Source: a virus. From it: 31,448 bases of DNA. A program made the translations under genes and the position numbers. The stretch covers positions 1 through 31,448 of IMG/VR virus record IMGVR_UViG_3300017917_000477; one strand, given 5' to 3'. Under the pieces are notes generated by a model. That model was not told the DNA's origin. It was given only the letters and a program-made list of their open reading frames with translations, and searched no databases. Shown piece by piece: positions 824-31,448 of this stretch (its first letter is position 1; each line of letters starts with the position of its first letter).

Positions 824-3800
824 TTACAGCCCCCTTAAGAACCTTGCGGCCTGTGTGTTTGTGTCTTGTAATGCTACTCCATCACTTGGTGTTCCAGCGC
901 CAGGAGCATACCATGTTACGCCTTGGCGTACCAAAATATTAATTTCATATCCGCTTGTTGGAGCAGTATCAAACTCTATTTGAACCGGTCCACTACCAAT
1001 AATTGTGTAATTGCCAACTTGGCGTGTTCCACCTACATATACCTCAACTGCTTCATCAATAATGGTACTGTCTTCACTGTCCAAATTGATATCAGTGGTA
1101 AACACAGTAGTTACTGAATCTCCCATAAATGCAGTATTGTTAATGTAGTTTTGAAATTCTTCTGGCATCAAATTACCACGACCGAGATTATAAACAATAG
1201 AATCAACTGGATGGTCCGCAATTGCTGTGCCAGCTGTTCCTCTTAACAAACCACTTACGGTATTGTTTACAATGTCTCGCTCACGATACATAATACGTTC
1301 ACCGTTAACTGTTAATACTCCCCAGATATTACTGTCCAGTGCTGGTTCGTCAAGAGCGTTGGCATTAACCACATACACTATATCATCTGTAGAGTTTAAG
1401 TCTTGGGACAATAATGTTGTAGTTGCCGGTGTAATGCGATAAGTGGCTTGAACTCCACGCATATCCTGGAATATACGGAATGCCATTGCTTCAGGAACTA
1501 CACTGTCAGTAAATTCGGTTACCATTAGTACATCTGTTGTATCCATAATACCTGCAGATAGTACTAGTTCTTCCCCAACTATAGTAAAGTCTTGTCCAAA
1601 GAATAATCGGCGACCTCCGCCGGTGGTGTTAGTATTGAGTGTGACTATTAATCTTTCTGGATCTGTGATGATTCTTCTAAGTTGTATGTTGTTAACTGCA
1701 ACCGTTGTGCCTGCAGAATAATCAAAACTACCCGGTGTGTTTGAAACAGTAGCTGAGTCAAAGTCTGTATCATCATACCCTTCTACTATTACTGTACCGG
1801 TGATAATTGGTCCAACAAATACCTGTGTTAAAATATTTTGTTGGCGTGTATCATTCCATGTAGTTACTGTAATGACGTCGCCGTTAACAGGAACCAAGCC
1901 TTTTGTTGGATCAAATACTATTTGATTTCCATTAACTTGACATTGAGTATTTGTAGTTACTGCAATTAAAATTTTGTCACCAATTTCGGGCGTGTTTGCA
2001 AATATTATTTCGCGAGGAGTAGAACCATCATATGGTTCTACTGTAAAGTCAACACCTAATGTTTGCGGAATATCATTGATATAGACTAGTACTTCATTGT
2101 CTGCAATTAAAGCCTGACTAAATCCAAGTCGATTTGGTAATTCATATGCTGTACTACCGTCACCTATGTAATCAATACCGGCTGCCGTTCTAGCTCGGGC
2201 ACCATTAACGGTAACAATCATATTAGCAGGATTAGTATAAGCTAAACTATAGTCTAGGTCATAGGCATAAATTCCAGTTTGACCGTTGATATATTGAATT
2301 GCTGGAGCACTCCAACTATAGTTAACAGTTGTGCTATCAATTGTGGTTGGGCCAAACACATAGACAACTACCACGTCATTGCTTGTAAAACTTGATCCAA
2401 ACGTAACTGTTGTAGTATTGTCAGAACCTTCAGCAAATGTTAAGTTAGTATAAACTTGTCCGTCGACCCAAGCTACTATTTCTTGAATTTGACTATACAA
2501 TACAGGAACGGTCACAGATGATCCAGCTGTGCCATTGAATATTTCTCGATACAACTGATTGCCGCCGCCAACTCCATATGCGGTACCGATCAGGGTGTCT
2601 CCTACGTTGCATCCTGAAGTAACTGTGAATGTTTTGGCAATCCAGTCCACGGTAAAGTTTATTCCGGCTCCTAGTAATTCAATGCCAGTGGTTTCATTAA
2701 CCAGTGAACCTGATACAAAGAATGGTACTTGATCATACCAAAGACTGAAATCATAAGTCTGTGGTAGTTGATCAACTACTATACCGTAAGAGTATGTTGG
2801 GAAACCGTGTCCGTTGACTGCCCAATCGCTACCAGGACGTGTGTAAACACGTAAGTCTAATGTATCAAACTCACTGCCCGGGATTAATTCTTCAGGAGCA
2901 TGACTAGAGTAAGTGTCAATATATGCACCACCGTCAACATTAACATCTGTAGCTCTTGTGCCAAGGAATGGATCAAGGTAAGCACTCTCATAAATTGCAT
3001 CTAGAATCGCAGGGTCATAAGTCGGTCGGCCTTCTGGTCCATAACTGATGTTGTCGTATGGATTGATATCAAAGTTACCAACATCATATCCTGTATTTTG
3101 ACTGAACAATGGGCCAAACACTTGTACACCTGGGTAATCTAACCCATCAATTAACAATGGCAAGTCAAGTCCAATTTCATTAGGACCTGGTGTATAATAA
3201 CCACGTGTACGATCAACACCGCTTAGGGTACTAGGATTAACCAATAGCCAATCTTCAGGATTAAATGTTGCGCTTTGTACTTCAGAACTATCGCTGCTGT
3301 CAGCTTGCCAAACTACATTGTTGTATCTAACTTGTGTGCCATTGGTGTAGATTACATTGGCTTGCCAATCTACAATGTTACTATTATACTGATAACGGTC
3401 ATACTTGATTGTAGTTTTGATTGATCGAATTAAGTCGTTGCCCATTACAGCCGATGCTCTAGCACCTACACCGTTGCCACCAACAAAAGTTATTACAGCT
3501 TCTGTTAGATATCCTGATCCTGGATTGATAATATTAATACCAATTACCTGACCGGCTGTATTAATTACTGCGGTCATTTCGGCTGGTGTAGTTGATACAC
3601 CAGATACCACTACCTCGGGCTCTACAGTATATCCTTGGCCGCCGTCAATAATGTTAACGCCCTGAATACTTAAAAGATAGTTGTTATACCATGCGTTCCA
3701 TGGTGTGTCATCCCATATTTCTGCATTTGCTGGTGTGTCGCTGTTGTTGTTTGCACGACCGGTTCCAGCAGCATCACTTTGAGTGTATGGTAATAAAATT

Positions 3801-6800
3801 GGACTTACATACTGAGGAATTACCAAATCAAGATTGTAATATGCCGGGTTATCAAAGTCTGAAATCATGCCAGCATAAGAATCTAAACCATTGTAGGCTA
3901 GGTTGAATTCTCGAACCTGCACGTGATAAGGTTTAACTTCTTGTAGATAGTCCAGAACAAACTCTTGATTGTCTTGTCTATATATTTGGAATGGCACTAG
4001 TTCACGAATCTTATGTTCAACATCAATCAAACTAGTCTTAATCAACCACTCTGGAGCTTCCTGTTCGCTTAAAATAAAATTAAACATCAAGATTAGTAGT
4101 CTATTGCGTTCAATAGCTAGTTCATCAATTAGTAATTCTTCGTTGATTGCTTGAATAATTTTACGTGTTTCAATCACTGGTTCAGCATCAAAATACTGAG
4201 CGTCAAACACTTCAACATCAAAGCCAAACAATCCCACAGAATAATTCCATAGTTTTTCACTAAATTCTATAGTTCCATCTTCAAGTCCAACACGATCCCA
4301 CCCTGTATCTGTACGTAGATAAATTTCAAACTTACCTTGTGCATTTGAGGTTACTTTAACGCTGTCGCCGACAGCCACAGACAATGTTGCCAATGATGCA
4401 TAATTTAAAACTTCAGCCACTGGTATTATTGCACTGTTATATCCTGGCATGTACCAGTTAATATGATTCCAATATTTGCGAGTGTCGTATGTTTGAACAC
4501 GAGTAAGTTGTACCACATTTGGTGAACCTAACAATGACGATCCTGCAATTACAGTGTAGATTGTCCAGAGGCCGCCGTTGGTGCTATCACTAACAATAAG
4601 ATATTTGTAACCCAACGGAACTTCAGATAAATCCTGATACCCAAGTTGCTCAATATTGTCTAACCTCATGTTCCACTCGCCGCTTGATACAGTTGGCTCG
4701 GGTTCCTGACTGTTTAACAGTGTGAATTTTCTTGTTTCAACAATTGGATAATTCTTCAGTATTGAATTAGCACGAACAAGATAGTTTTCGAGTGCTTCAT
4801 AACGATTCAAGAACATGCTTTGTCTTGGTCGGAATTGTACACCATATTGTTCTGGAGGGCTTAACGTTGCATCCGGAACTTTAGCTCCTACTGTGTTGAC
4901 TCCGCAAAAACTGTCTTGAAGTTTGCGATACAATCCATCACTTAAGAAACTGTCAGGGCGATCCTGGGCGATTAGTTCAAACTCTGTGTGAATATTATCT
5001 GTGGTATATTCACGATCATATTCAATGTGTAATATTGTATCTTGGGCTGAGATGAAATCAAGTCCATTATAGATAGCCACAGTACTTGAATTTAAAGCCG
5101 CAATATAAGGAATTCCACTGCTTCTTGGACTTTCAATATATCTTGAAATACCAATGGTACTCAATGTTTTGCCAGCTTTAGTATCAACTGTGTCAACACC
5201 TGTGACCCAGAAATAATATTGAGTGGCAAATGTCCCTTGAGGGGTCAAACGACTTGATACTGCATAGCTTGAAGTATCCAATGGAGTTCCTTGGCCAGTG
5301 TAGGAATCTGGAGGAGTTGAGCTTTCAATCCATTGATAGATGTCTATACTTGATCCAGGGAACAACTGCCCCCATCTGCGACTAGCATAAACAATGTCGT
5401 CTTGATTTGGATCAATAAATCTTGCTCGATCTATGTTCCACCATATTTCACCTACATGATTCTCTGCCCAGAAGTTACCATTGTTATTGGTTGATCCAAC
5501 ATTGTATTTGGCTGGATCTGCTACGCTGATGTAATCAATGTTTTGACGTGCTGCTCCTAATATTTTTCCTTGTAACGGATTAATAAAATCAAAGAAATGT
5601 GTTTTGCTTGATTGTAACTTATCATACATAAACACAGAATTTAACAAATAAACATCAACCACTGGTTGTTGCTGATGAATTACTGTCCAGGCCCGTCTAC
5701 GTTCGGTGTTGTTAAACACAGCCACACGTCCGTAATTTAAATTACTTAACGTGCTGTCTCCAAGATCACTACCGGGCGCACCAACTAGCAATCTACCGGT
5801 GGTATAATTTACGGCTGTGCCCCAACGGTCAAGAGATCCAACCTCAGAATCATATATTTGTTGTCCAAACACAAACTTTCCTGGATTAGATACAGAATCA
5901 GTTGCACTTGGCAAATAGTCAAATGTATAAACTGCACCACTTTGTATCACAGTTGAACTAAACGGTGTACTGTTGTCATCAAAATAAGTAGATCCACTAT
6001 CAAATGTCACTGGCTCATAGAGATTACCACCAGGGGCACCTACTACTAAATTATCAGCTTCGCTGTCAATAAACAACGATTTTCCAAATTCTGCGCTTGG
6101 TACTGGATTTGGACTGGTGATTGTTTGTGTGTAAGCGTACAAATCAAAACCAAGATCCGCATACGCTGTTCCACTGGTTCCGGGCAAAACTGTTAATCGA
6201 TTAAATTGATCTGCGGCTGCTGTGTTAATAACACTAATAGTCAACTTCCCATCGGTAGATATTGCTGTAATGTTTGGAATATTTGCAGCAACTATAGCAT
6301 CGGCTAATCCTTCAACAGTGTTGTCTGGTGCGTTTGGTACAGCAACTGGTGTATTCTGAATACGAATAGTATCTCCTGGAGTTAATGTAGGATCTACTTC
6401 TGTAGATGTTATAACTCCATACACACGAGCTTGATTTACTCTTCTGTCAACACTGCCGGCCCCGGGAACAATTGATCCATCCAATGGGGCGCCAACGTAT
6501 ATACTGCAATTATTTGGACAGATGTCTACAGTTTCTCCAAAGTTTGCAGATTCAAATACTGCATTGGCTGGGAAATTTTGTATTAGATTGAATATGTTAC
6601 TTTCAAATTGTAGGATATCACCGACTGATAGTGTTACATTTTCCAACACTACATCGGAACCAGAAACAGTAAACTGCCCATTGATAAATTGACCAGCGTT
6701 GTCTAAGAATGTGTTGTTTAACAACACGCTAACTGGGGATTGGAACCCAGATGGTAATGCATAGGTCAAGGTGGTTGGATCTGTAACAATAACTCTTGTT

Positions 6801-9800
6801 ACGCTACGATCAAATGTGTATACGCTACCAGCATCGCTCGTTGTATCAACTGTGTCATTTGGACAACCAATAATCACTTGTCGACCGTCGGTGGTAGTTG
6901 CAACACTTTGACCAAATCTTGCATCTGATGCTAACCCACCAACAGTAATAGTATCAACTGGTGTAAAATAAGTTTTTGAAGTAACTACAATCGCTGCGTC
7001 ATTAGCCGGAGCAGTAGTAAACGTGATGTTGCCACTAGCCCAATTATAGTCAATATAAGGACGTTGTAGATCTCCATTAACTGTAACAGAGAAAGAGAAT
7101 ATATCATTGTTATCAACAGTTTTTAAATAAAGATCAACGTCAAACACTGTTGTACTGCCATCACCTGTGTATGTTTCTGCAGTTTTACGTGTAATGACTA
7201 ACTTTAGGCCCCGGGCTGGTGTATTGGTTAATGCAACGTTTGTTCCTGAGACTGTATAATCAACACCCAAGGTCAACAACTGATTATTTAGAACTACGTT
7301 TAATTGTTCGTCTTCAGTTATTACGATTGACTCGCTGTAATTGTACAAGAAAGTAATACCATCAGTGGTATATGACACTGCCTGTTCTTCAAGGTCCACT
7401 CTTCCAAACGCATATACTTTGTTTTCAGCTGGGGCTCCTATATACATCCAACGTTCATCACGGCTTATGGCAACTGAATATCCAAACTCTGATGTTTCTG
7501 CATAATCACCAAACGGTGCAACTAACAGTTGTCGTTGTTCAAAAGCATTGGTGGTGTTGCCGCGATAAATGACACTAGCATAACCAGTTTGACTGTTGCT
7601 TTCACTTGCTCCTGCAACACACCACTCTTGATTTCCAATGTCAACAGCATTTCCATAACCTTGTGTGTCTGTTGCACCTAACAACAAAGTTGAACTTTGT
7701 GCATATTTGTTGTTATTGTCTCGTAGATACGGATATAATGCTCCAGTACCATTAAATGATGGAGCTCCGACAAGAGCAATAATATTGTCAACTCCTTGTG
7801 CGATACTTGATCCATATCCAGTATTTGAAACTAAAATATTTGGTTCCAAAGATGTATTGGAAACAAACGGCGATTGTTTTTCAATTACTTCCCACAATCC
7901 TGCGCCGTTGTTATCTACCCATGCTCGTGCTCCTGGTAATAACGAATTAACATATGGCAAGTTAACCACATCGCTGGCCTGTGACACTCTCATTGTTTGT
8001 AAACTGTAGGCGATTCCTTGAAGTGCAATATTTGATAATCCATTTAGTATAGTAATTGGTAATTCAACTACTATACTTGTTGCGCCGGGCACTGCTAGGA
8101 CACGATACACGCCGTTGATTTGTTCATTTACAAAACGTATTACAATAATACTATCAACGCTCAATCCGTGAGGTTTACTAAACGTAATTGTGCTGGTAGT
8201 ATCAAGATTTGAGGAAATATTTAAAATTCTACCAGGTACACCTGTGCATCTGTAAATATTCCAATCATAGCTGTTGCTCTTGGCTGCCCAGACTGTGGTT
8301 CCTATACCAATGGTATCTAACACCGCTGGAGAAATTCCTAACTCGCCTAGCAATGAAAATACTGTAACATCAACATCATCAAGATTTACATAGCCGGCTG
8401 TTGGTAATGCTGCATCTTGTACATTGGTTAATGTAGTTGGTAATATATCAGTGGATGTAATTTTGTAGCTTTCTCTCCAGAGATCGTTGAGCAATACAGT
8501 TTGATCAGCTTGGCTAGTTTGTTGAGGTTCAACAACCTGAATCAGTGCCGGATCAGATTCTAACAATGCTTCATTTAACTGAAGTTCAATAAAACTACGG
8601 TTGGCATTGGCACCATACGTGGCACGTTGAATTGCCCAATTTTCAAATACATCATATTCTGCAACTTCTTTACCAAGATTAGCATTGCCTAACAAACGTA
8701 CACTTTGTATAGTTCCTTTGTTCTTTAAAAATTGTTGATAGACATTTACCTGACTAATATCATCAAGATTTAATGCTGTCATATATTCTCTTGGTCTAAA
8801 ACCTATTAGGCCATAGCTCAACAAATCTTGATCGCTCTCAAGATTTGCAGTGTTAGTATTATAACTGTTTGCTAGTTGGTTGGCTTTGTTAGGTACGTTC
8901 TCTAACAGACCTCCTTGAATCTTAGTATAATCACTCTTAACCCAATTGCTATATTGGAATTCAACTGCTGGTTGAACAATAGTTTGAGCTGACCAATAAT
9001 TGTTCTTATAAAGAACAATTTCTCCTTTTGCATACTTACGATTTGGCTCCCAATTTTTAATGGTGGCACGATTGTTAAGTATGAAACCTTGTGCATCAAC
9101 TTGACCATTCCAATCTGCGCTCACTGCTGCAATCATATTGATACGGCTCTGGCGTGCACCAGTGGCCGGATTATAAATTAAATCATTAAAAATACTTACA
9201 TTATCAAGTACTACCATACTTTCATAGCTGGTATATTTTAAATCTAAATATGAAATTGTTTGATTGCTTAAACTTGATATTTTAAATGTATTTTCAAAAC
9301 GATCTACAACCAAATCTCTCACAGGTAATGTTGTTCTGTTTTGATCTAAAATAAGATTTTCAGGAGTTTGTGCAACCACACTATCAACAATCGCGCCAGC
9401 CTTGTATGCAGTCAATGATGTTGCTGTTGGATTGAGATTAATAACACTTCCAGTTTGCCAACCTTGATTGGCCCAATATAAAAATTCCTGAGCCATTTGA
9501 TTCCAGTTTAACGTGCGACCATTTTCTCTTCCATCAAAAACCAATCCTTGGCTTTCTAGCAATGCTCCGTAGCTTAACAAGAAATCAACCACAACAGTTT
9601 GATTAGTAAACACATATCCGTAAGGTACTTGTACTACATCTTTTGAATATTCGTTGGGCACTCGAACAGTTGTTCCGCCCGACTCAATGGTAATTTTTGT
9701 ACCAGATGTTCGACTGGCTAAAATTTCAAAATACGGATTGGTAATACTGTATCCATAAACAGCATATCCATCATCAACAACTTGAACAATTACACTACTA

Positions 9801-12800
9801 TAAACAATTCTTTCAAAAGGTTGATTTTTGTACAACAATAAATTATAACTCTCGTCAGGCAAGAGCAAACTAGAATTTAAACTGTTTGGGCTTGATTTTT
9901 CTGTGTAAATTTTAAGATATTGTTTGTCAGTAAAGCTACCCATACGATAACATAATCTTACATCGAGGTTGGCTAAATCTGCAGTTAATCTTGTTGAGCT
10001 GTCTGTGCCTAATAGTTGATTGTAATCGACTATCCAGTCAATATAACTGGCTTTGCTTACTCCATTGCCGTAGACTTCAACACCATTAGCATCTAATCTA
10101 TAACGGTCATTATAGAGATACTGATCGAGTTCTGTGTCAAACTTATACAAGTCTCTATCAACAAACAATGAGAAGAATTCTGCTGGACGAGTCAATGCCA
10201 ACAGTCTCATAATAGCAAATGGATAACTTGAACTCTTGAACCACGTAGCTTCTACAGGACCACCATCACCAAAAGTCCATGATTTTTGAAACTGTGACGA
10301 GTCGTACAATCCGACTACTGTGTCAAACGGACTTAATAGTTGTCCTTCACTGTTGGTTGGAATAACGTTAGATAACCCAGGGCGTGCATATTGTGGGAGA
10401 ATATACTCACCGGCCGGATCGGCAACACGTCCTAGTTCTAAATCATCCCATAGAACCAAGTTACCACTGGTATATGGAGCTGATCCATAGATATCTTCCC
10501 ACCATGATGGTTCTTCTGTAAAACCTAACATTTCCCACGGGCGTGTATCTGGGTAATCAGTATCATAGAAATATCTATAAATGCCGCGCCAGGCGCCAAT
10601 CAGCAAAGGAGTTTCTGCTAAAATGTTATCTAAACTAGATAACTTGTTGCCAGCAGCACTATAGTTCCAAGTAAATTCATTAGTGGAACTATAATCTTGT
10701 TGTTTATAATCTAACTTGTTCCAACCAACCCAACTTAAAAAGTCTGTAGATAGTATTTGATTGATTTCAGACAGTGTGTAATCTGTGGTTCGGAATTGTC
10801 CGGGGATTACTTCTGTGGCTGGCAAAGGAATAGCCGATTTAATTTTTAAGTTATTGTAAATTCTAGTTTCAAACTCTAGCAACAGACTGTCTCGAAAATC
10901 GCCAAATGCAATAGTTTTACTACCATCATGACCCTGTATAACCAATGTTGGATTGATATAAGTTGTATCTAGATAGATCTGTGGTTTAAATGCAGGATAC
11001 AATCCAAGTTTAGTTGGAGTGTTGGGAACAAAGTTACCATACGTGGTTGCATATTCTCTAATAACAATAACATCGCCTACACTCAGTGGAGAAGTAATTG
11101 TCAACCGTGGGCCTTCTGTTGCAACAGTGTAATCGTATCCGTAGGTTAATAACTCATTGTTAACATACACTAGAACACTTTTATAGTTTGAACTTGTAAA
11201 GTCATAAGTGGTTGTTAAATCAAATACTGGAGTTGATATGGCAGTATATGTTGTTGTTGATTGAGTAAACACCGAGCTAGCCGGCAACATATCACTCCAG
11301 TAAAACGGATTCAATGATGTACGACCAACAGTTATGTCATTGATTATTGCAGTCAACATATCCGGAATAGAATAGTTGGTATAATCATTACGTACCGCTG
11401 TATCTAACAGTTGAGCTTTGAATTTTTCGTATTCTCTGCTGTTGTAATTTAACGCATTGAATATGTTGTATTGTTCACTGCGCATAAAATAACCAGCTAA
11501 TGTCATTGGTGAACTTTGTTGTAGAATATTTTCTCCATAAAGTCCAATGTTGCCAAGGTCTCGAGTGTTATTGGCACCGTTGATTGGTCCTACAATATCT
11601 TTGAGATTTTCGCCAATTGTTTCATAGTGTGATCGAATAGTACCTAGAGTAAATGTTCCGCTGTTTTCGTTCAATGGATTATTTTCAAGGTTAACTGGAA
11701 CTTGATAGAACGCAACTTTACTAATTTTATCACTGATAATATCAACTTCAATAACATCGTCGGGCGCAGCAATTTCAATATTGGAATTAATAGTTAACGT
11801 TGTAGTATCGCCGTTGACTGTGTAGGTATACTTTGTAGGATCAATAAATTTTCCCGACACATATACTTGAAGTGCTGGCAAAGGAGTTGACTCGTCAGCT
11901 GGCACATCCATAACTAGTGGATTGCCATTATAGATAAATCTAAATTGTTGTCTTGTAATACTTTTTGTAATTGCTGACTGCCAACCAATTTCTTTAATAA
12001 ATGTGGTTCTATCTTTGTATTCTCTAACAACACCTTGACTGATGTTTTCGGTAGAACTTACACTATCTTTGGTGTAGGTAAACGTATCGGTGTATAGATT
12101 ATTTTCAAATACAATATCTCCAACGTTAGCTAAACTTAGATATCTTAAAGGAAATCCTAGAACTAAATCCTTATTGCCAGTTGATGAGGCGTAAGAGAAC
12201 AATTTACTACCTGTAAAATTGGTACTTGGATATTTTACGCGATTACTAAAACTAACCCCACTTAAGTCATAAACATCAAACAACGGTGCTTGATTTGTTG
12301 CTGTTTTTTCTTGCGCTTGTATCCATTCTACTCCATCGTAGTAAAAACTCAAACCTTGTTGTTGTGCTCCACTCAGACAAACTACAGTTTGATCTACTAA
12401 CACTGTTGAATCACTTGCCGGTACTAAATTAATAATTGGTTGAGCAATCAGTGGAGGCACAGAATCTGGTACAATAAACTCTACTACATAAATTTTATTT
12501 CGAACTTGAGGATCAGAATCTGCTGCAAATATAACTCTAGAACCATTAATAAACGAATATCCATCTGTGCTGTAGCTAGTTGTTCCATTAATAGTACTCA
12601 ATGCATCTGTGGAGTTGAAATCAATAATGTCAACTGGTTGTTTTCCTTGGGTTCCAAAATTAAACAACTTGGTTCCAGCTCTAAATTCAATGATAGGACG
12701 TTTTGCACGGAAGTTATTATCCAACAATGCAACGCTATTATTGTATTCAGCTGTGGCATTGATTACGTCAATGTGGAACCAGCGGTTGCTGCGTGTCCAT

Positions 12801-14776
12801 GCATTAAGGTCGGGACTAGCGCGGTTGATTGTGAGATAATCAGGAATTTCAGGCTGATTTAAACTGGCATCATAATTTCCAATATCGTAACCGGTGCTGT
12901 CATAGGGTACAGTTGCACTCTGGGTATAAGTTTCAGGGGTCACAAAATTAGACACCGGAAGTAGTTTAATTGCAGTACCAACACCCTCAACATAATATTC
13001 TTGATTTTGATAACTACTAGGATTTACAGATCCAATGAATTGGACTTTTAATCCATTGGTGAATACAACTCCATTGGGACTGGTATAATTTTTCTTGTCA
13101 AGTATATCACTGATATCCAATGTATCAACCTGATCTTGATTGATTAGTTTGATGCGACCAAATATTCCTGGATCAGTTCCATCTTGATAATACAACGTAT
13201 CTTTTACGGCTGTTAATAAAGGAATTTGTTCAAAAAATCCCTCAGCATTTTTAAACCATTGAGTATTTGAATACTGTGTTCCGTACAATGTTGTAAATTT
13301 TTCTAATTCTGAAACAGATAGAATATCAACCAACTTGATATACTGAGAACCATCATCGGTGGTTACATATTGTATTTGCCAAACACTGTATCGTTTATTT
13401 GCTGGGACATCTGTGGTTTGATCAAACAGCGTAGTGTCATATGACCCAGGTCCACTTTGTACATTACCTACGTTTGGCAACGGATCAAATTGTGTAGTTA
13501 CTTGCCACCCACCATCTTGTGCATTTTCAATTTGATTCAAAAATACAATAGTTTTTCCGTTGAGCGAAGTGGTTCCATCAATGCCACCAGTTTGTTCTAT
13601 AAAGGGTACAACATATTGATTGTTAATTTCATTAAACTTAAGATCCGACACAATCAAATCCACTGTGCCAGCTGGTTTACCTGGTATGCTACCAATCGTA
13701 TCTAGCGTATAATAGAAATTTTGTGCAGTGGCCAATGGGACATTAAAAGTAACTGTGCCTAAATCTTCGCCGTTGTTAACAACTCCTAGCACATCTCTTG
13801 AACTGATATTTGGTGTTGCAGGAATACGTCCGTTAACTCCAGGGTCGGTTTGAATCCAGAATCCTGGGCCAGTTCCAGGAGTAGCATCAATGATATTGAT
13901 TTGCCCTTGCATATTAGGCTGAGTAGAATTTGCATAATACAAGGTGTCTGGTGCATCCTGAGGAACTACGAATGTGATTAATCCTTCGCTGATACCATTG
14001 TTAGTAACGCCAACATTGTATTGATTGTTTGTTCCAAGAGTAGGCGATGTTTTAATATACATCGGCAAATCTCTGTTGAGAATTAGATCAAACACATATG
14101 TGTTTCCTCGTACCAGTGTCAACGTTGGATTGTTTACATAATCAATCACGTAGGCACTAGTGCCTTGATTCGTTACACGAAAGTTAATAGTTTCTTTTTC
14201 ATTTTGTGCAACATTGAATGTGTAGTTGCCCCCTCTAACCAACGTTAAAGAAGGGTTTGTTCCAGGAACTCCACTAAATGAATATACTCCGTTAGATCGT
14301 GTTACATCAAAACTATCTGTGGTTGCTACTGCTTCGGCAAACACGTCAACAGAATCTGGGCCAGCTGGCAACCAGTAGTATTGATTAAAATTTACAAATT
14401 TATCAAAATCAACAAATGGATCCCAAGTATAGTATTCGCTCGTGTACAATCTGTCTGCGTTATTGGTAATAGATCCTTGAAGATTTAATGCATCTGTAAT
14501 ACCAGGATAGGTAATAGCATCATTAACGTTTTGTCGATCCTCACTTAGCAATACCACCCCAGGCTCAAGCTGATAATTGGTGCGAATGGCTGTGGGTTCT
14601 GTTACATAGTTTTCATCGGGATTTACACCAGGTCCAACTCTGCGTCCAACAAACCCTTGAATCTTTTTAAACTTAGGTTCTTGTACTAATTGATCAAGGG
14701 TTGCTCCGAGAAACTGTCGATTAGTAGAGGTTTGAAAAATCTCTGGTAAAAAATCTACGGTGCGTACTCTTGCCAT
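824..14776 (-). CDS. Giant baseplate/tail structural protein, 4650 aa, multidomain
   Basis: One uninterrupted frame of 13.95 kb. It lies directly after gp6, where T4 has gp7, and starts one base after the gp6 stop, with GGAG at 14786-14789. Approximate modules in order: N-terminal head (1-140) with D-F-L-P-E-I-F and G-R-R-V-G-P-G-V motifs that I recall from marine T4-like structural proteins; cupredoxin-like beta repeats (about 175-380) with T-L-V-R-G-x-T-Y; a Trp/Tyr-rich core (about 1090-1790); a CBM5/12-like W/Y module (about 1900-1955); an FG-GAP beta-propeller (about 2315-3010) with V-G-A-P repeats; a conserved alpha-rich part (about 3540-3650); GGxGY repeats (about 3710-3775); a second W/Y module (about 3800-3850); a H-A-P-E-E-L motif (about 3955); then many V-x-V-N-G beta-hairpin repeats to the end (A-A-R-F-L-R-G). 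No signal peptide or transmembrane segment. Probably a wedge/fibre protein replacing gp7 and perhaps fibre genes; function is inferred from position. Confidence 0.88.
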   Translation of the reverse strand: MARVRTVDFLPEIFQTSTNRQFLGATLDQLVQEPKFKKIQGFVGRRVGPGVNPDENYVTEPTAIRTNYQLEPGVVLLSEDRQNVNDAITYPGITDALNLQGSITNNADRLYTSEYYTWDPFVDFDKFVNFNQYYWLPAGPDSVDVFAEAVATTDSFDVTRSNGVYSFSGVPGTNPSLTLVRGGNYTFNVAQNEKETINFRVTNQGTSAYVIDYVNNPTLTLVRGNTYVFDLILNRDLPMYIKTSPTLGTNNQYNVGVTNNGISEGLITFVVPQDAPDTLYYANSTQPNMQGQINIIDATPGTGPGFWIQTDPGVNGRIPATPNISSRDVLGVVNNGEDLGTVTFNVPLATAQNFYYTLDTIGSIPGKPAGTVDLIVSDLKFNEINNQYVVPFIEQTGGIDGTTSLNGKTIVFLNQIENAQDGGWQVTTQFDPLPNVGNVQSGPGSYDTTLFDQTTDVPANKRYSVWQIQYVTTDDGSQYIKLVDILSVSELEKFTTLYGTQYSNTQWFKNAEGFFEQIPLLTAVKDTLYYQDGTDPGIFGRIKLINQDQVDTLDISDILDKKNYTSPNGVVFTNGLKVQFIGSVNPSSYQNQEYYVEGVGTAIKLLPVSNFVTPETYTQSATVPYDSTGYDIGNYDASLNQPEIPDYLTINRASPDLNAWTRSNRWFHIDVINATAEYNNSVALLDNNFRAKRPIIEFRAGTKLFNFGTQGKQPVDIIDFNSTDALSTINGTTSYSTDGYSFINGSRVIFAADSDPQVRNKIYVVEFIVPDSVPPLIAQPIINLVPASDSTVLVDQTVVCLSGAQQQGLSFYYDGVEWIQAQEKTATNQAPLFDVYDLSGVSFSNRVKYPSTNFTGSKLFSYASSTGNKDLVLGFPLRYLSLANVGDIVFENNLYTDTFTYTKDSVSSTENISQGVVREYKDRTTFIKEIGWQSAITKSITRQQFRFIYNGNPLVMDVPADESTPLPALQVYVSGKFIDPTKYTYTVNGDTTTLTINSNIEIAAPDDVIEVDIISDKISKVAFYQVPVNLENNPLNENSGTFTLGTIRSHYETIGENLKDIVGPINGANNTRDLGNIGLYGENILQQSSPMTLAGYFMRSEQYNIFNALNYNSREYEKFKAQLLDTAVRNDYTNYSIPDMLTAIINDITVGRTSLNPFYWSDMLPASSVFTQSTTTYTAISTPVFDLTTTYDFTSSNYKSVLVYVNNELLTYGYDYTVATEGPRLTITSPLSVGDVIVIREYATTYGNFVPNTPTKLGLYPAFKPQIYLDTTYINPTLVIQGHDGSKTIAFGDFRDSLLLEFETRIYNNLKIKSAIPLPATEVIPGQFRTTDYTLSEINQILSTDFLSWVGWNKLDYKQQDYSSTNEFTWNYSAAGNKLSSLDNILAETPLLIGAWRGIYRYFYDTDYPDTRPWEMLGFTEEPSWWEDIYGSAPYTSGNLVLWDDLELGRVADPAGEYILPQYARPGLSNVIPTNSEGQLLSPFDTVVGLYDSSQFQKSWTFGDGGPVEATWFKSSSYPFAIMRLLALTRPAEFFSLFVDRDLYKFDTELDQYLYNDRYRLDANGVEVYGNGVSKASYIDWIVDYNQLLGTDSSTRLTADLANLDVRLCYRMGSFTDKQYLKIYTEKSSPNSLNSSLLLPDESYNLLLYKNQPFERIVYSSVIVQVVDDGYAVYGYSITNPYFEILASRTSGTKITIESGGTTVRVPNEYSKDVVQVPYGYVFTNQTVVVDFLLSYGALLESQGLVFDGRENGRTLNWNQMAQEFLYWANQGWQTGSVINLNPTATSLTAYKAGAIVDSVVAQTPENLILDQNRTTLPVRDLVVDRFENTFKISSLSNQTISYLDLKYTSYESMVVLDNVSIFNDLIYNPATGARQSRINMIAAVSADWNGQVDAQGFILNNRATIKNWEPNRKYAKGEIVLYKNNYWSAQTIVQPAVEFQYSNWVKSDYTKIQGGLLENVPNKANQLANSYNTNTANLESDQDLLSYGLIGFRPREYMTALNLDDISQVNVYQQFLKNKGTIQSVRLLGNANLGKEVAEYDVFENWAIQRATYGANANRSFIELQLNEALLESDPALIQVVEPQQTSQADQTVLLNDLWRESYKITSTDILPTTLTNVQDAALPTAGYVNLDDVDVTVFSLLGELGISPAVLDTIGIGTTVWAAKSNSYDWNIYRCTGVPGRILNISSNLDTTSTITFSKPHGLSVDSIIVIRFVNEQINGVYRVLAVPGATSIVVELPITILNGLSNIALQGIAYSLQTMRVSQASDVVNLPYVNSLLPGARAWVDNNGAGLWEVIEKQSPFVSNTSLEPNILVSNTGYGSSIAQGVDNIIALVGAPSFNGTGALYPYLRDNNNKYAQSSTLLLGATDTQGYGNAVDIGNQEWCVAGASESNSQTGYASVIYRGNTTNAFEQRQLLVAPFGDYAETSEFGYSVAISRDERWMYIGAPAENKVYAFGRVDLEEQAVSYTTDGITFLYNYSESIVITEDEQLNVVLNNQLLTLGVDYTVSGTNVALTNTPARGLKLVITRKTAETYTGDGSTTVFDVDLYLKTVDNNDIFSFSVTVNGDLQRPYIDYNWASGNITFTTAPANDAAIVVTSKTYFTPVDTITVGGLASDARFGQSVATTTDGRQVIIGCPNDTVDTTSDAGSVYTFDRSVTRVIVTDPTTLTYALPSGFQSPVSVLLNNTFLDNAGQFINGQFTVSGSDVVLENVTLSVGDILQFESNIFNLIQNFPANAVFESANFGETVDICPNNCSIYVGAPLDGSIVPGAGSVDRRVNQARVYGVITSTEVDPTLTPGDTIRIQNTPVAVPNAPDNTVEGLADAIVAANIPNITAISTDGKLTISVINTAAADQFNRLTVLPGTSGTAYADLGFDLYAYTQTITSPNPVPSAEFGKSLFIDSEADNLVVGAPGGNLYEPVTFDSGSTYFDDNSTPFSSTVIQSGAVYTFDYLPSATDSVSNPGKFVFGQQIYDSEVGSLDRWGTAVNYTTGRLLVGAPGSDLGDSTLSNLNYGRVAVFNNTERRRAWTVIHQQQPVVDVYLLNSVFMYDKLQSSKTHFFDFINPLQGKILGAARQNIDYISVADPAKYNVGSTNNNGNFWAENHVGEIWWNIDRARFIDPNQDDIVYASRRWGQLFPGSSIDIYQWIESSTPPDSYTGQGTPLDTSSYAVSSRLTPQGTFATQYYFWVTGVDTVDTKAGKTLSTIGISRYIESPRSSGIPYIAALNSSTVAIYNGLDFISAQDTILHIEYDREYTTDNIHTEFELIAQDRPDSFLSDGLYRKLQDSFCGVNTVGAKVPDATLSPPEQYGVQFRPRQSMFLNRYEALENYLVRANSILKNYPIVETRKFTLLNSQEPEPTVSSGEWNMRLDNIEQLGYQDLSEVPLGYKYLIVSDSTNGGLWTIYTVIAGSSLLGSPNVVQLTRVQTYDTRKYWNHINWYMPGYNSAIIPVAEVLNYASLATLSVAVGDSVKVTSNAQGKFEIYLRTDTGWDRVGLEDGTIEFSEKLWNYSVGLFGFDVEVFDAQYFDAEPVIETRKIIQAINEELLIDELAIERNRLLILMFNFILSEQEAPEWLIKTSLIDVEHKIRELVPFQIYRQDNQEFVLDYLQEVKPYHVQVREFNLAYNGLDSYAGMISDFDNPAYYNLDLVIPQYVSPILLPYTQSDAAGTGRANNNSDTPANAEIWDDTPWNAWYNNYLLSIQGVNIIDGGQGYTVEPEVVVSGVSTTPAEMTAVINTAGQVIGINIINPGSGYLTEAVITFVGGNGVGARASAVMGNDLIRSIKTTIKYDRYQYNSNIVDWQANVIYTNGTQVRYNNVVWQADSSDSSEVQSATFNPEDWLLVNPSTLSGVDRTRGYYTPGPNEIGLDLPLLIDGLDYPGVQVFGPLFSQNTGYDVGNFDINPYDNISYGPEGRPTYDPAILDAIYESAYLDPFLGTRATDVNVDGGAYIDTYSSHAPEELIPGSEFDTLDLRVYTRPGSDWAVNGHGFPTYSYGIVVDQLPQTYDFSLWYDQVPFFVSGSLVNETTGIELLGAGINFTVDWIAKTFTVTSGCNVGDTLIGTAYGVGGGNQLYREIFNGTAGSSVTVPVLYSQIQEIVAWVDGQVYTNLTFAEGSDNTTTVTFGSSFTSNDVVVVYVFGPTTIDSTTVNYSWSAPAIQYINGQTGIYAYDLDYSLAYTNPANMIVTVNGARARTAAGIDYIGDGSTAYELPNRLGFSQALIADNEVLVYINDIPQTLGVDFTVEPYDGSTPREIIFANTPEIGDKILIAVTTNTQCQVNGNQIVFDPTKGLVPVNGDVITVTTWNDTRQQNILTQVFVGPIITGTVIVEGYDDTDFDSATVSNTPGSFDYSAGTTVAVNNIQLRRIITDPERLIVTLNTNTTGGGRRLFFGQDFTIVGEELVLSAGIMDTTDVLMVTEFTDSVVPEAMAFRIFQDMRGVQATYRITPATTTLLSQDLNSTDDIVYVVNANALDEPALDSNIWGVLTVNGERIMYRERDIVNNTVSGLLRGTAGTAIADHPVDSIVYNLGRGNLMPEEFQNYINNTAFMGDSVTTVFTTDINLDSEDSTIIDEAVEVYVGGTRQVGNYTIIGSGPVQIEFDTAPTSGYEINILVRQGVTWYAPGAGTPSDGVALQDTNTQAARFLRGL

Positions 14777-27836: not shown

Positions 27837-28850
27837 ATGAGTCTATTTAAAAAAGCACTACTATTCACCGATATACATTTTGGCCTAAAGTCAAACAGCC
27901 TGGTTCACAATCAAGATTGTGAAGCATTTGTAGATTGGGCTATTCAGTTGGGCCAGGAACAAGGTTGCGAAACTGGATTCTTTCTTGGGGACTGGCATCA
28001 TCATCGAGCTAGTTTAAATCTGCAAACTTTGAATTTCAGCCTTAGAAGTTTGGAAAAACTAAGTCGGGCGTTTGATCGCTTTTATTTTATTCCTGGAAAT
28101 CATGACTTGTATTATCGAGACCGGAGAGACATACACGGTGCTGAGTGGGCTCGACACATTCCCAATATCATTGTGGTCAATGACTGGTTTCAAGACGAAG
28201 ATGTGGTAATTGCGCCGTGGCTCGTTGGCGATGACCACAAACGTATTCCAAAACTCAATGCTCGATATGTGCTTGGGCATTTTGAGTTGCCACACTTCAA
28301 AATGAATGCCATGGTTGAAATGCCCGACCACGGAGAACTACAAGCTGAACACTTCGATGGTGTTGGAGAGGTGTTTTCTGGGCACTTCCATTTGCGTCAA
28401 CAACGACGCAACATCAATTATATTGGCAATGCATTTCCACATAACTTTGCTGATGCCGGTGACGACAAACGTGGCTGTACAGTTGTTGAGTGGGGAGAGA
28501 AGCCCACGTATCATGCTTGGCCCGGGCAACCGTTATATAAAGTCACTAAATTGAGCACAGTAATTGATTCAGCTCCAACTATACTTTTACCAAACATGCA
28601 TGTGCGTGTTGAATTGGATATTGACATTAGCTACGAAGAAGCAACTTTTATCAAAGACACGTTTGTTAAAGATTACAATTTACGTGAGATGGCATTGATA
28701 CCTGTTAAGAGCACCGCAGTTGACACCGACATGGCTCCTGGCGAAGTTAGATTTGAATCAGTAGATCAGATTGTCACTGATCAGATTACAAATATATCCA
28801 GCGAATTTTACGATCCAAAATTATTGTTACAAATCTATCAAAATCTATGA
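27837..28850 (+). CDS. 47: Recombination endonuclease subunit gp47 (SbcD/Mre11-like)
   Basis: This is the nuclease subunit of the gp46/gp47 complex, which resects DNA ends for recombination-dependent replication and takes part in host DNA breakdown. All calcineurin-type metallophosphoesterase motifs are present: D12-I-H14, G-D52-W-H54, G-N88-H89-D90, G147-H148 and G-H183-F-H185. Length 337 aa matches T4 gp47 (339 aa). It begins 12 bases after the gp55 stop without an obvious Shine-Dalgarno site, and its TGA overlaps the gp46 ATG (ATGA), so the two subunits are likely translated together. A TATAAT sequence at 27825-27830 sits in the short spacer but has no suitable -35. Confidence 0.95.
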   Translation: MSLFKKALLFTDIHFGLKSNSLVHNQDCEAFVDWAIQLGQEQGCETGFFLGDWHHHRASLNLQTLNFSLRSLEKLSRAFDRFYFIPGNHDLYYRDRRDIHGAEWARHIPNIIVVNDWFQDEDVVIAPWLVGDDHKRIPKLNARYVLGHFELPHFKMNAMVEMPDHGELQAEHFDGVGEVFSGHFHLRQQRRNINYIGNAFPHNFADAGDDKRGCTVVEWGEKPTYHAWPGQPLYKVTKLSTVIDSAPTILLPNMHVRVELDIDISYEEATFIKDTFVKDYNLREMALIPVKSTAVDTDMAPGEVRFESVDQIVTDQITNISSEFYDPKLLLQIYQNL

Positions 28851-30610
28851 TTCATATTAAAAACTTAACTGTTCGAAATTTTATGAGCGTGGGCAATGCC
28901 ACGCAGGCCATTGACTTTGATCGCAAAGATCTTACATTGGTTTTAGGAGAGAATCTAGACCTTGGTGGAGATGGCTCACGCAATGGCACAGGTAAAACTA
29001 CAATTATTAATGCGTTAAGTTATGCGTTGTACGGCAATGCTCTTTCAAATATTCGCAAAGACAATCTAGTAAACAAAACCAATGGCAAGAACATGCTTGT
29101 GAGTTTGGACTTTATTGTTGCTGGCAAAGAATACAGAATCGAACGTGGACGTAAACCTAATGTGCTCAAGTTTTATGTCAACAATGAAGAACAAGCAGCT
29201 AGTGACTATGCTCAAGGTGACAGTCGTGAAACACAAGAAGCTATCGAAACAACCATGGGCTTGAGTCATGACATGTTCAAACACATTATGGCTTTGAATA
29301 CCTATACCGAACCGTTCTTGAGTTTAAAAGCCAACGATCAACGAACACTAATTGAACAGTTGTTGGGTATTACCATGCTCAGTGAACGTGCTGATCGCAT
29401 CAAAGAACTAAACAAAGCAACCAAAGATTCAATCACACAGGAAGAGTTTAGAATACGTGCTGTAATTGAAGCCAACAAACGCATTGAGGAACAGATTGAA
29501 AGTCTCAAACGCAGACAAACCATGTGGGTTAATAAACATGCCGAAGACGTACAAAAACTACAACTCGCACTGGATGAACTTCAGAAAATCAACATTGATG
29601 AAGAGATCCAGGCGCACAAGGAACACTCAGCGTGGGATCAACGCCGCAAGGATTACAATGACCTCCAAGGTGCCATCAGCCGCGCTAAGTTGGAGGTCCA
29701 ACGTGAAGAGAAGTCTATTAAAAAATTGGAGGCGGAGATTGCCTCGCTCCAGAGCCACCAGTGCCATACGTGCGGTCAGCCGTTCCACGACGAGAAGCAC
29801 CAACAAGTTTTGGAGAATAAACAGAAAGATTTGGCAGATGCGCGAGAGAAGTGCCAGCAAGATAGCGCCACAGTATCAGAAATACAGACTGCCATCACCC
29901 AGCTGGGCGAAATAGGTCGTCCACCTAAGATGTTCTATGACAAAGAAGAAGATGCTATTTCTCATAGAGCTACACTGGCTGGGCTACAGGCACAGATTGA
30001 GATCAAACGTACAGAAACTGATCCGTACGAAGAACAAATTGTTGAAATGGCACAACAGGCTTTGCAAACCATTGACTACGATGAACTAAATCGCCTTACA
30101 CGTTTGCAAGAGCACCAAGAGTTTTTGTTGAAGTTGCTGACATCCAAAGACAGTTTTATTCGTAAAAAGATCATTGAACAGAATTTAAGTTACTTGAACA
30201 GCAGACTCACACATTATCTTGATCGCATTGGATTGCCACATACAGTTGTATTCCAAAACGATCTAACTGTGAGTATTGAAGAATTAGGGCGCGAACTGGA
30301 TTTTGACAATTTGAGTCGTGGAGAACGCAACAGACTTATTTTGAGTATGAGTTGGGCATTCCGTGATGTTTGGGAAAGTTTATACGAACCTATCAACGTT
30401 TTGTTTATTGACGAAATGATCGACAACGGCATGGACACTCAGGGTGTTGAAAACAGTCTAGCACTACTTAAGAAAATGAGTCGTGATAGACATAAGAGCA
30501 TTTGGTTAGTAAGTCACAAAGACGAACTTGCTGGGAGAGTAGAGAACATTCTCAAAGTGGTCAAAGAAAACGGATTTACATCATATAATACAGATATAGA
30601 GATTGCTTAA
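28847..30610 (+). CDS. 46: Recombination endonuclease subunit gp46 (SbcC/Rad50-like ATPase)
   Basis: This is the SMC-type ATPase partner of gp47. Walker A is G43-S-R-N-G-T-G-K50-T; coiled-coil arms follow (about 170-300 and 315-400), joined by the zinc-hook C306-H-T-C309-G-Q; then the ABC signature L489-S-R-G-E and Walker B V-L-F-I-D522-E523, with the switch His in W-L-V-S-H-K. Length 587 aa compares with 560 aa in T4. The frame is intact and overlaps gp47 by four bases. The hook segment (about 29640-29880) is visibly richer in G+C (about 48-57% per 60-base line by my count) than flanking lines (about 38-42%) and uses different codons, which hints at a recombined patch. Confidence 0.96.
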   Translation: MIHIKNLTVRNFMSVGNATQAIDFDRKDLTLVLGENLDLGGDGSRNGTGKTTIINALSYALYGNALSNIRKDNLVNKTNGKNMLVSLDFIVAGKEYRIERGRKPNVLKFYVNNEEQAASDYAQGDSRETQEAIETTMGLSHDMFKHIMALNTYTEPFLSLKANDQRTLIEQLLGITMLSERADRIKELNKATKDSITQEEFRIRAVIEANKRIEEQIESLKRRQTMWVNKHAEDVQKLQLALDELQKINIDEEIQAHKEHSAWDQRRKDYNDLQGAISRAKLEVQREEKSIKKLEAEIASLQSHQCHTCGQPFHDEKHQQVLENKQKDLADAREKCQQDSATVSEIQTAITQLGEIGRPPKMFYDKEEDAISHRATLAGLQAQIEIKRTETDPYEEQIVEMAQQALQTIDYDELNRLTRLQEHQEFLLKLLTSKDSFIRKKIIEQNLSYLNSRLTHYLDRIGLPHTVVFQNDLTVSIEELGRELDFDNLSRGERNRLILSMSWAFRDVWESLYEPINVLFIDEMIDNGMDTQGVENSLALLKKMSRDRHKSIWLVSHKDELAGRVENILKVVKENGFTSYNTDIEIA

Positions 30611-30651: not shown

Positions 30652-31080
30652 ATGGTATGGCTATATGAATCTAAACAAGTTGATGTTTTACCCGAAGACT
30701 GTGTGGGATTTGTTTACTTGATAACAAATACTATCACAGGACGCAAGTACATTGGTAAAAAATTAGCAAAATTTTCAAAGACAACATACAAAGTAGTAAA
30801 ACTAAAGAACGGCAACAAAAAGAAGAAAAAAATCAGAAGTAAAATTGATTCAGACTGGCAACTATACTATGGCTCAAGCCCAGAACTAAGCAAAGATATC
30901 GAACAACTAGGCATAGAAAACTTCTCAAGAGAAATACTTTATTATTGTAAAAGCAAGTCTGAATGTAGTTACATTGAGGCCCGAGAACAATTTGCACGCA
31001 AAGTATTAGAATCAGACGACTACTACAACGGACACATTCAAGTTCGTGTACACGGTAGTCACATAAAAAACAAAATTTAA
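30652..31080 (+). CDS. SegE-like GIY-YIG endonuclease
   Basis: A 142-aa protein with a GIY-YIG nuclease fold: G19-F-V-Y22 and K32-Y-I-G35 stand for the GIY and YIG strands. The following features fit SegE-type phage endonucleases: a Lys-rich stretch (N-G-N-K-K-K-K-K-I), S-D-W-Q-L-Y-Y-G-S-S-P-E-L (about 68-80), F-S-R-E-I-L, and the E in Y-I-E-A-R-E-Q-F, with Y-Y-N-G-H near the end supplying the usual catalytic Glu and Asn. It is free-standing, 41 bases after gp46, on the same strand, and there is no clear Shine-Dalgarno site. Such genes often act as homing endonucleases that cut near their insertion point in gene-lacking relatives; some relatives may have other roles. It is directly followed by the structured non-coding region. 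Confidence 0.82.
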   Translation: MVWLYESKQVDVLPEDCVGFVYLITNTITGRKYIGKKLAKFSKTTYKVVKLKNGNKKKKKIRSKIDSDWQLYYGSSPELSKDIEQLGIENFSREILYYCKSKSECSYIEAREQFARKVLESDDYYNGHIQVRVHGSHIKNKI

Positions 31081-31448
31081 CACAGGCATCTAGATAGGCA
31101 ACAACATGACTCTGTTGGTAGGAGTGTTCCTACCCCCATTGAGGAACGGTGAGATACCCGGTCCAGATTCTTGGGCGTCAAAGGCAATTGCTAACTTAAG
31201 GCAACAAATGGTTTGAGCTCTGTAGAAAAAGATACAACTCATGCTTATAGGATTTGGGTCTATTCCGGATTACTAGGGTTCCGTTGATATGTGAAGCTTG
31301 AGTAGGGGGTACCGGTCAACCGCCTCCGTGTCGTAAGACAATCTCATTAGAATAGATGACTGTGCTACTCGGATAATGGCATTTTCAATTCACCGTGCAT
31401 ACGGTGAATTATGACCAATTAATCTGGATAATAGCTAAAACAAATCAA
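31081..31448 (+). ncRNA. Structured non-coding region, unidentified RNA candidate
   Basis: No credible gene is present in these 368 bases to the window edge. The plus strand contains a run of hairpins: 31117-31134 (GGTAGGA/TCCTACC, loop GTGT), 31143-31164 (GGA-CGG/CCG-TCC with one A.G mismatch), 31214-31241 (TGAG and TGTA paired with TACA and CTCA), 31305-31327 (GGGGG and CGG paired with CCG and CCTCC around TCAA), 31329-31340 (TGTC/GACA with a GTAA GNRA tetraloop), and 31387-31410 (perfect 10-bp stem). This density, the GNRA loop and higher G+C than nearby genes suggest an RNA with a fold. It is not a tRNA, and I cannot place it in a known family; it could be a leader of the next gene, an intron fragment or an independent RNA. 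Strand is inferred from the flanking operon. Confidence 0.5.
31387..31410. repeat. Perfect inverted repeat, 10-bp arms
   Basis: The arms AATTCACCGT (31387-31396) and ACGGTGAATT (31401-31410) are exact complements around GCAT. There is no T-run on either side, so it is not an intrinsic terminator as it stands. It may be an operator, a processing hairpin or the last stem of the structured RNA. Confidence 0.85.

Follow-up and report, generated by a model that had tools for sequence, protein, structure and literature searches.

GOLLD and ROOL RNAs are often encoded near tRNA islands. Both are described as large, ornate, pseudoknotted noncoding RNAs of phages and prophages, ROOL being 659 nt and GOLLD >800 nt long, and the function of GOLLD is given as unknown (PMC12286853). 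Symmetric kissing loops are reported for OLE and GOLLD, and OLE chains are said to meet through four conserved A-A pairs in a symmetric arrangement (PMC12286853).

The window analyzed here is the whole of IMG/VR record IMGVR_UViG_3300017917_000477, 31,448 bases long, and the end of the contig falls inside the RNA that we describe. This RNA is like GOLLD and ROOL, as that source portrays them, in being large, ornate, pseudoknotted and phage-borne, but it differs from them in having no Rfam match, in its length of ~430 nt, in its position beside gp46 and a GIY-YIG gene, in the absence of tRNA genes from 55 loci, and in a pair of arms coupled by identity. It shares with OLE its large size and its structure. 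OLE, in which two chains touch symmetrically through segments that are alike, is described as a bacterial RNA, and the present RNA has no OLE family match.

At the gathering score none of the 4227 families of Rfam 15, the GOLLD, ROOL and OLE covariance models included, matched in the whole window or in 20 homologous loci, which agrees with the original prediction, where the stretch could not be matched to introns, tmRNA, RNase P RNA or a riboswitch; at E ≤ 10 only weak unrelated matches were seen for the last 499 bases of the window and for the complete homolog L075. A search with ARAGORN gave neither tRNA nor tmRNA, whether in the window or in 55 homologous loci, and tmRNA was rejected as an identity, tRNA-like ends and a tag frame being absent by ARAGORN and Rfam. 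No group I or group II intron family model matched, and there is no interrupted gene, the RNA lying between separate ORFs in the loci inspected. Representatives of its sequence types A, B, and C (see below) gave no blastn match among 50,697 phage records at E ≤ 1. The RNA matches no family searched and, as far as the literature was searched, is undescribed. On comparative grounds we consider it very probably a real, new, free-standing structured RNA.

Gene neighborhood and family

No gene of the upstream operon in the ORF list extends into the last 368 bases of the window (31081–31448), and the sole ORF of at least 40 codons that overlaps them is 50 codons long and lies on the minus strand (31090–31242). 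The original prediction had picked out this stretch as gene-free and dense in RNA structure, and both features hold up, the second through strong covariation in homologs. When the longest ORF of each of 67 homologs is taken, the median length is 37 (plus) and 41 (minus) codons and the maximum 67 and 77, and a protein-coding stretch was rejected as improbable on this comparison of ORF lengths.

The upstream gene order is late sigma factor, gp47, gp46, GIY-YIG gene, and then the RNA. On the plus strand, the gp46-like (SbcC/Rad50) gene of this operon occupies 28847–30610 (phrog_77), and the GIY-YIG (SegE-type) endonuclease gene at 30652–31080 (PF19835, SegE_GIY-YIG, E 1.2e-32) is immediately 5′ of the RNA. 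The GIY-YIG family, phrog_447, carries the PHROGs label "NAD synthetase" and the same label is found in many phage records; it looks wrong, as Pfam calls the family SegE_GIY-YIG. Elsewhere in the window a single minus-strand ORF of 4650 codons (824–14776) fills nearly half of the sequence.

The first set of relatives came from the best 80 of 595 IMG/VR GIY-YIG protein relatives and from a scan for the conserved RNA motif (at least 120 stretches). The RNA profile matches 196 of 207 records at E ≤ 1e-3 (window included), or 157 distinct RNA sequences, a ratio that is not a frequency since most of the records were fetched via the RNA motif or the neighboring gene; the 11 records without a profile match include six named-phage loci. 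A fairer sampling, by gp46 relatives (best ones only), gave 83 loci, 45 of which have >3.5 kb downstream, and 43 of these 45 carry both the RNA and the GIY-YIG gene. By this test the distant loci L423 and L424 have neither. Among the 38 loci with less room, 18 have both, 7 have neither, and 13 have a GIY-YIG match without the RNA; 11 of these last end within ~50 bases of the GIY-YIG match, and the exceptions are L359, which has ~900 bases left and no RNA match, and L425, whose GIY-YIG match is weak and on the minus strand.

The family falls into at least three sequence types, A (that of the window), B, and C, and the 3′ part is common to all. Three blocks of types A and B score in L423 above all of 300 shuffles, and on these blocks we accept L423 as a distant member; its stretch 8326–9139 has a fold z-score of −9.0 and a repeated 7-mer that differs (AGGTAAT). 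The block-versus-shuffle comparison led us to reject L424 as a member. The same slot in that locus (10108–11051) contains, by eye, several diverged copies of the short motif ATGGATTTTAGAT...AATGGATAAA, which is not the RNA.

Among the matches listed, the GIY-YIG gene is upstream of the RNA in 107 of 120 motif-fetched loci. Twelve of the 13 others have <600 bases upstream, and the last, L095, has 1019 bases in which the gene is absent. Of the 107 loci having the gene (again among the matches listed), 21 have a gap of more than 300 nt between gene and RNA, filled by other genes where inspected; the RNA is retained even at a distance of ~0.3–1.9 kb from the GIY-YIG gene. In many loci other genes have inserted beside the RNA, upstream or downstream of it and in either orientation, among them homing endonucleases (PHROGs) and sulfotransferase-, SGNH- and radical-SAM-like genes (by eye), and the RNA flanks look like an insertion hot spot.

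On the downstream side, 151 loci have room for a further ORF, which lies on the opposite strand in 137 and on the same strand in 14; another 45 loci are too short. Several contigs are present twice among the loci, and hence we recounted by distinct RNA; of the 120 with room, 107 have a convergent next ORF and the other 13 are followed by a same-strand one. A convergent baseplate-hub gene, phrog_150, is common farther downstream in relatives, and the gp45 gene that had been expected next is not borne out by this arrangement. The family lies between the gp47-gp46-GIY-YIG block and a second block, for the most part convergent, in phages that are T4-like and probably jumbo.

Because the downstream ORFs are mostly convergent, the RNA is better understood as a separate RNA between convergent blocks than as a leader. 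The original prediction had named both a leader and a free-standing RNA; the leader is disfavored and the free-standing RNA fits best, and overall its observation is confirmed and its interpretation partly supported. A leader, riboswitch, intron or other known phage RNA would suit a position after gp46 in a gene-dense genome and the 13 of 120 distinct RNAs with room in which the next ORF is on the same strand, but the lack of any Rfam, tRNA or tmRNA match, the mostly convergent downstream genes and the absence of an interrupted gene largely refute such a reading, which we hold to be very improbable. In the one homolog scanned, the complete L075, there is neither a promoter above chance nor a plus-strand terminator match. 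The element could also serve merely to protect the gp46-GIY-YIG mRNA, as its 3′ UTR or as a bidirectional terminator, since it ends that block, has hairpins at its end and is flanked mostly by convergent blocks; its structure, however, far exceeds what a terminator needs and it persists ~0.3–1.9 kb away from the GIY-YIG gene, and we think this quite unlikely.

Fold of the plus strand

The window contains the 5′ ~350 nt of a large structured noncoding RNA of type A (31090–31448, plus strand, the 5′ edge being approximate), delimited by nhmmer and blastn homologs and by covariation. Complete homologs extend past 31448 into a hairpin with GA..GAA internal-loop bases and then a last hairpin, which is 83.8% paired in the alignment of 67 type A sequences, for a total type A length of ~400–450 nt (~430). 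The window sequence alone folds to −106.7 kcal/mol (z −2.1, with 3 of 100 shuffles as good), and as this single-sequence result is only modest the case rests on the comparison of homologs.

The alignment comprises 66 of 68 chosen loci (L038 and L054 were left out) and the window, or 67 sequences. Its 94 pairs, in 17 helices and one pseudoknot, have standard pairs in 97.0% of 6223 cells, a value flattered by a structure derived from largely the same sequences as were counted; fairer measures are the slid-partner controls, with 37.9–43.8% standard pairs, and the double changes, with 51 of the 94 pairs changing on both sides (shuffle mean 29.3) and 530 double-changed cells against a shuffle mean of 146.0. 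None of 500 shuffles reaches the observed value on any of five measures. Covariation among homologous spacers, the check suggested with the original prediction, is strong and does not refute it. Six pairs of the variable 5′ hairpin, <70% paired, were left out of the counted structure; 31183–31186/31412–31416 (88–99% paired), two alternative pairings (31300–31303/31367–31370 and 31344–31348/31355–31359) and two lone pairs were removed by hand, and helix 10 and the pseudoknot were added by hand from the covariation scan. At mostly Watson-Crick pairs there are 173 G-U cells and 61 A-C cells, and this large excess of G-U makes the plus strand the likely folded RNA and led us to reject a minus-strand RNA. 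Type B has its own consensus of 111 pairs, 64 of them changed on both sides, with 9704 of 10424 cells paired in 97 sequences. These comparisons show a plus strand predicted to fold into a conserved architecture of ~17 helices and a pseudoknot.

The 5′ domain (31108–31179) consists of helices 31108–31110/31177–31179, 31135–31138/31172–31175 and 31143–31151/31157–31164, which are 99.5, 100 and 98.7% paired, respectively, and in which 11 of 14 pairs show double-side changes; it also includes the variable hairpin (about 31116–31134), which is misaligned between subgroups and outside the counted structure. Helix 4 (31188–31204; 96.1% paired, 4 of 5 pairs double-side changed) closes a highly conserved loop around UAACUUAAG, and the helix 5–6 hairpin (31210–31245; 98.1 and 95.0% paired, 5 of 11 pairs double-side changed) has a conserved GAAAAAGAU-type loop. 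Helix 7 (31248–31275; 99.7% paired, 3 of 10 pairs double-side changed) presents in its loop, at 31259–31264, the 5′ strand of the pseudoknot, whose 3′ strand is at 31351–31356 (helix 8; 95.2% paired, 5 of 7 pairs double-side changed) and which gains one more pair, at 31350, in homologs. Helix 9 (31276–31298) is a nearly invariant stem, 98.5% paired, in which no pair changes on both sides, and so it has no covariation support.

Helices 10–13 (31299–31346) comprise a closing helix, 31299–31302/31343–31346, around a bulged stem and a GNRA hairpin; among the 67 sequences the pair 31299/31346 is split evenly between A-U and U-A, at 33 each. The bulged stem (31305–31327; 99.7 and 99.0% paired) has a UAC bulge and a UCAA loop, and its end pair is G-C or A-U. 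In the GNRA hairpin (31330–31339) a GUAA loop at 31333–31336 caps the stem 31330–31332/31337–31339, which is 100% paired with 3 of 3 pairs changed on both sides; a GNRA loop is found in 61 of 92 type A RNAs (automatic loop pick) while the stem changes. Helix 14, a 10-bp hairpin (31387–31410), is 98.2% paired in the 9 pairs counted, and type B has a different hairpin sequence in this place. The GNRA, bulged and 10-bp hairpins had each been named in the original prediction, and all three are present and conserved in homologs.

Twin arms

Helix 14 lies between two copies of GGATAAT on the plus strand, arm 1 (u1) at 31371–31377 after a near-invariant CTC and arm 2 (u2) at 31426–31432 after TCT. 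A covariation scan found that columns 31371/31426 and 31375/31430, and also 31377/31432, covary by identity and not by complementarity. Most arms read R-G-A-T-R-A-W, and the GAT.A core is kept in most variants. Of 319 matches to the arm pattern 295 were used, giving 222 unique RNAs, and in these arm 1 is preceded by CTC in 220 and arm 2 by TCT, with the arms 47–61 nt apart around the hairpin. The arms agree at their free positions in 220, 222 and 220 of the 222, and positions 0, 4 and 6 are the fair ones for this count, as CT[CA]/TCT and some of the core are set by the pattern, which also selects the most similar pair wherever more than one fits. In a larger set of 239 unique RNAs from all loci, the arm 7-mers are identical in 235, with 13 different sequences, and the remaining 4 differ by one base.

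A quick tree was made from 92 type A RNAs (138 complete matches reduced at 95% identity, plus the truncated window) with the arm columns left out; on it two arm positions change at least 19 and at least 10 times, with 19 and 10 joint changes. Independent pairs go the same way in 13 of 14 and 6 of 6 cases (sign test p 0.0002 and 0.03). Two columns inside one arm, taken as a control, do not track each other, and the coupling is weaker two places past the 7-mer (544/614: 19 and 11 changes, 21 joint). Of 333 loci with a complete 3′ part, 331 fit the two-arm pattern and the other two have repeats of other letters; L159, L408 and L423, which lie outside the pattern, still have identical 6–7-mers of other letters, 54–65 nt apart. 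In types B and C short GCTTCGCT-type repeats follow arm 2 in many members. The comparison of homologs shows two 7-nt segments that appear to evolve as identical copies.

A pairing partner for the arms was sought in several places. No complementary column was found within the RNA alignment; reverse complements of the arms number 78 against 65.3 expected within 2.5 kb, which is no clear excess, and 0 against 0.2 expected in the 350 nt before arm 1, an expectation too low to inform. In 21 long contigs the 13 arm-like matches outside the RNA that were read are all inside long open frames. A pattern search of the genome collection gave 3 exact matches, one of which (L327, E 0.008) was touched by the type B profile at E ≤ 0.01 while the other two were untouched, and these three are taken as chance. 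The triplets before the arms have candidate partners in the core: ACUC of arm 1 could be bound by GAGU at 31300–31303 (proposed by alifold as an alternative, without covariation), and AUCU of arm 2 by AGAU in the loop near 31230–31233 (by eye, without covariation). The fixed CTC and TCT could in this way anchor each arm to the core.

Our preferred explanation, to which we give a probability of about one half, is that this is a free-standing, trans-acting structured RNA with duplicate recognition arms. It would be made as a discrete or processed transcript ending at the last hairpins, and would act in trans and not as the leader of a neighboring gene. Its invariant parts would form a rigid core from which both arms are presented, with a separate triplet (CTC for arm 1, TCT for arm 2) holding each in place. 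The two arms would contact a common partner. Base pairing to a single target elsewhere than in the locus is the likeliest means, and a host RNA that varies from host to host would be an example; when such a shared target changes, both arms must change. We put forward this last part, the duplicate-arm, one-target mechanism, tentatively and at somewhat less than even odds. The failure to find an arm partner in the RNA columns, in the 2.5-kb flanks or in the 13 arm-like sites read speaks against it, as does the fading of identity coupling outside the 7-mers (544/614). A separate target also needs three sites to change together, and direct contact or copying between the arms is arguably more parsimonious.

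Direct contact would be expected of a structural, self-assembling RNA like GOLLD, ROOL and OLE, a homo-oligomer whose arms are kept alike by lying in symmetry-related contacts. The present RNA is similar in kind to GOLLD and ROOL (large, ornate, pseudoknotted, phage-encoded), and a two-body relation accounts for joint change without a third site. Against self-assembly, all four bases occur as identical arm pairs at one position or another, and homo-pairs of different bases are not known to be geometrically interchangeable. No tRNA gene occurs in the window or in 55 homologous loci, unlike GOLLD and ROOL. The OLE symmetric contact is a precedent for like segments, but at ~430 nt the RNA is smaller than the 659 nt of ROOL and the >800 nt of GOLLD given there (PMC12286853). 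We find self-assembly doubtful.

Two short segments must likewise be identical in the T4 gene 60 bypass, the telomerase template, the DRT2 repeats and the lambda att overlap. A small-ORF bypass like that of T4 gene 60 was raised because RGA-URA resembles a codon and a stop, and was dropped because, by eye, an indel makes the frame that starts at the upstream ATG differ from one relative to another; the present RNA, unlike gene 60, has no common reading frame by eye. Copying or recombination could act here if a nascent strand jumps templates, being made on one repeat and then pairing again with the second, or if the 7-mers are the overlap of recombining sites. Such schemes would demand identity without a separately encoded partner, and 7 nt would suit a recombinase overlap. 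The telomerase, DRT2 and lambda att comparisons differ from the present case in that 14 long contigs have no match to a reverse transcriptase (PF00078), tyrosine recombinase (PF00589) or serine recombinase (PF00239), though host enzymes, other families or missing parts of contigs could still supply one, and no excised single-copy form is present among the 333 loci with a complete 3′ part. This reading seems to us improbable.

A protein could also impose identity, if a phage or host protein (a dimer) binds both arms, or an RNase cuts both, and site and protein co-evolve. The GAT.A core of most variants and two like sites 47–61 nt apart around a hairpin are what favors protein binding, but at least 19 and at least 10 joint flips within one RNA type are many for a change of specificity, and L159, L408 and L423 keep arm identity with different letters; it is on balance unlikely. 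The RNA may represent a new phage RNA class, one with two segments that do not pair with each other and yet are kept the same by selection, via direct coupling or copying (symmetric self-assembly, or one strand re-pairing arm to arm), which we regard as possible, not probable.

Cultivated relatives and biological meaning

Judged by gp46, the closest isolates are jumbo phages of the Arenbergviridae, PA5oct and Paride among them (52% identity). Sinorhizobium phage Phosso (48%) comes next. In the same slot after gp46, Paride (L330:13180–14130) and Phosso (L331:13430–14400) have ~900 nt each without convincing genes, and these stretches fold better than shuffles (z −3.9 and −6.5, respectively). 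The gene beyond the slot is an annotated baseplate hub in Paride and a hypothetical gene in Phosso. The Paride stretch is annotated as several tiny hypothetical proteins, and that of Phosso contains the 11-mer CTTCGCTATTC twice, 66 nt apart. Rfam gave one weak match on the Paride, Phosso and Atu_ph07 loci, outside the stretch. The best block of the Paride stretch against the RNA was equaled in 1 of 300 shuffles with ~20 blocks tried, and we do not claim homology; for Phosso the figure is 39 of 300. It is possible that these stretches are a large RNA in cultivated jumbo phages, and a laboratory model may thus exist in named Pseudomonas and Sinorhizobium jumbo phages.

Retention of the RNA by nearly all sampled phages of an uncultivated group with little wasted space suggests that it should matter for infection. 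The twin arms offer a testable handle, as matched and mismatched arm pairs are directly comparable. If the identity coupling is true, it would be a mode of covariation that methods seeking complementarity would not report as structure, and if the partner of the arms is a host RNA, the arms could help to identify the hosts of these phages.
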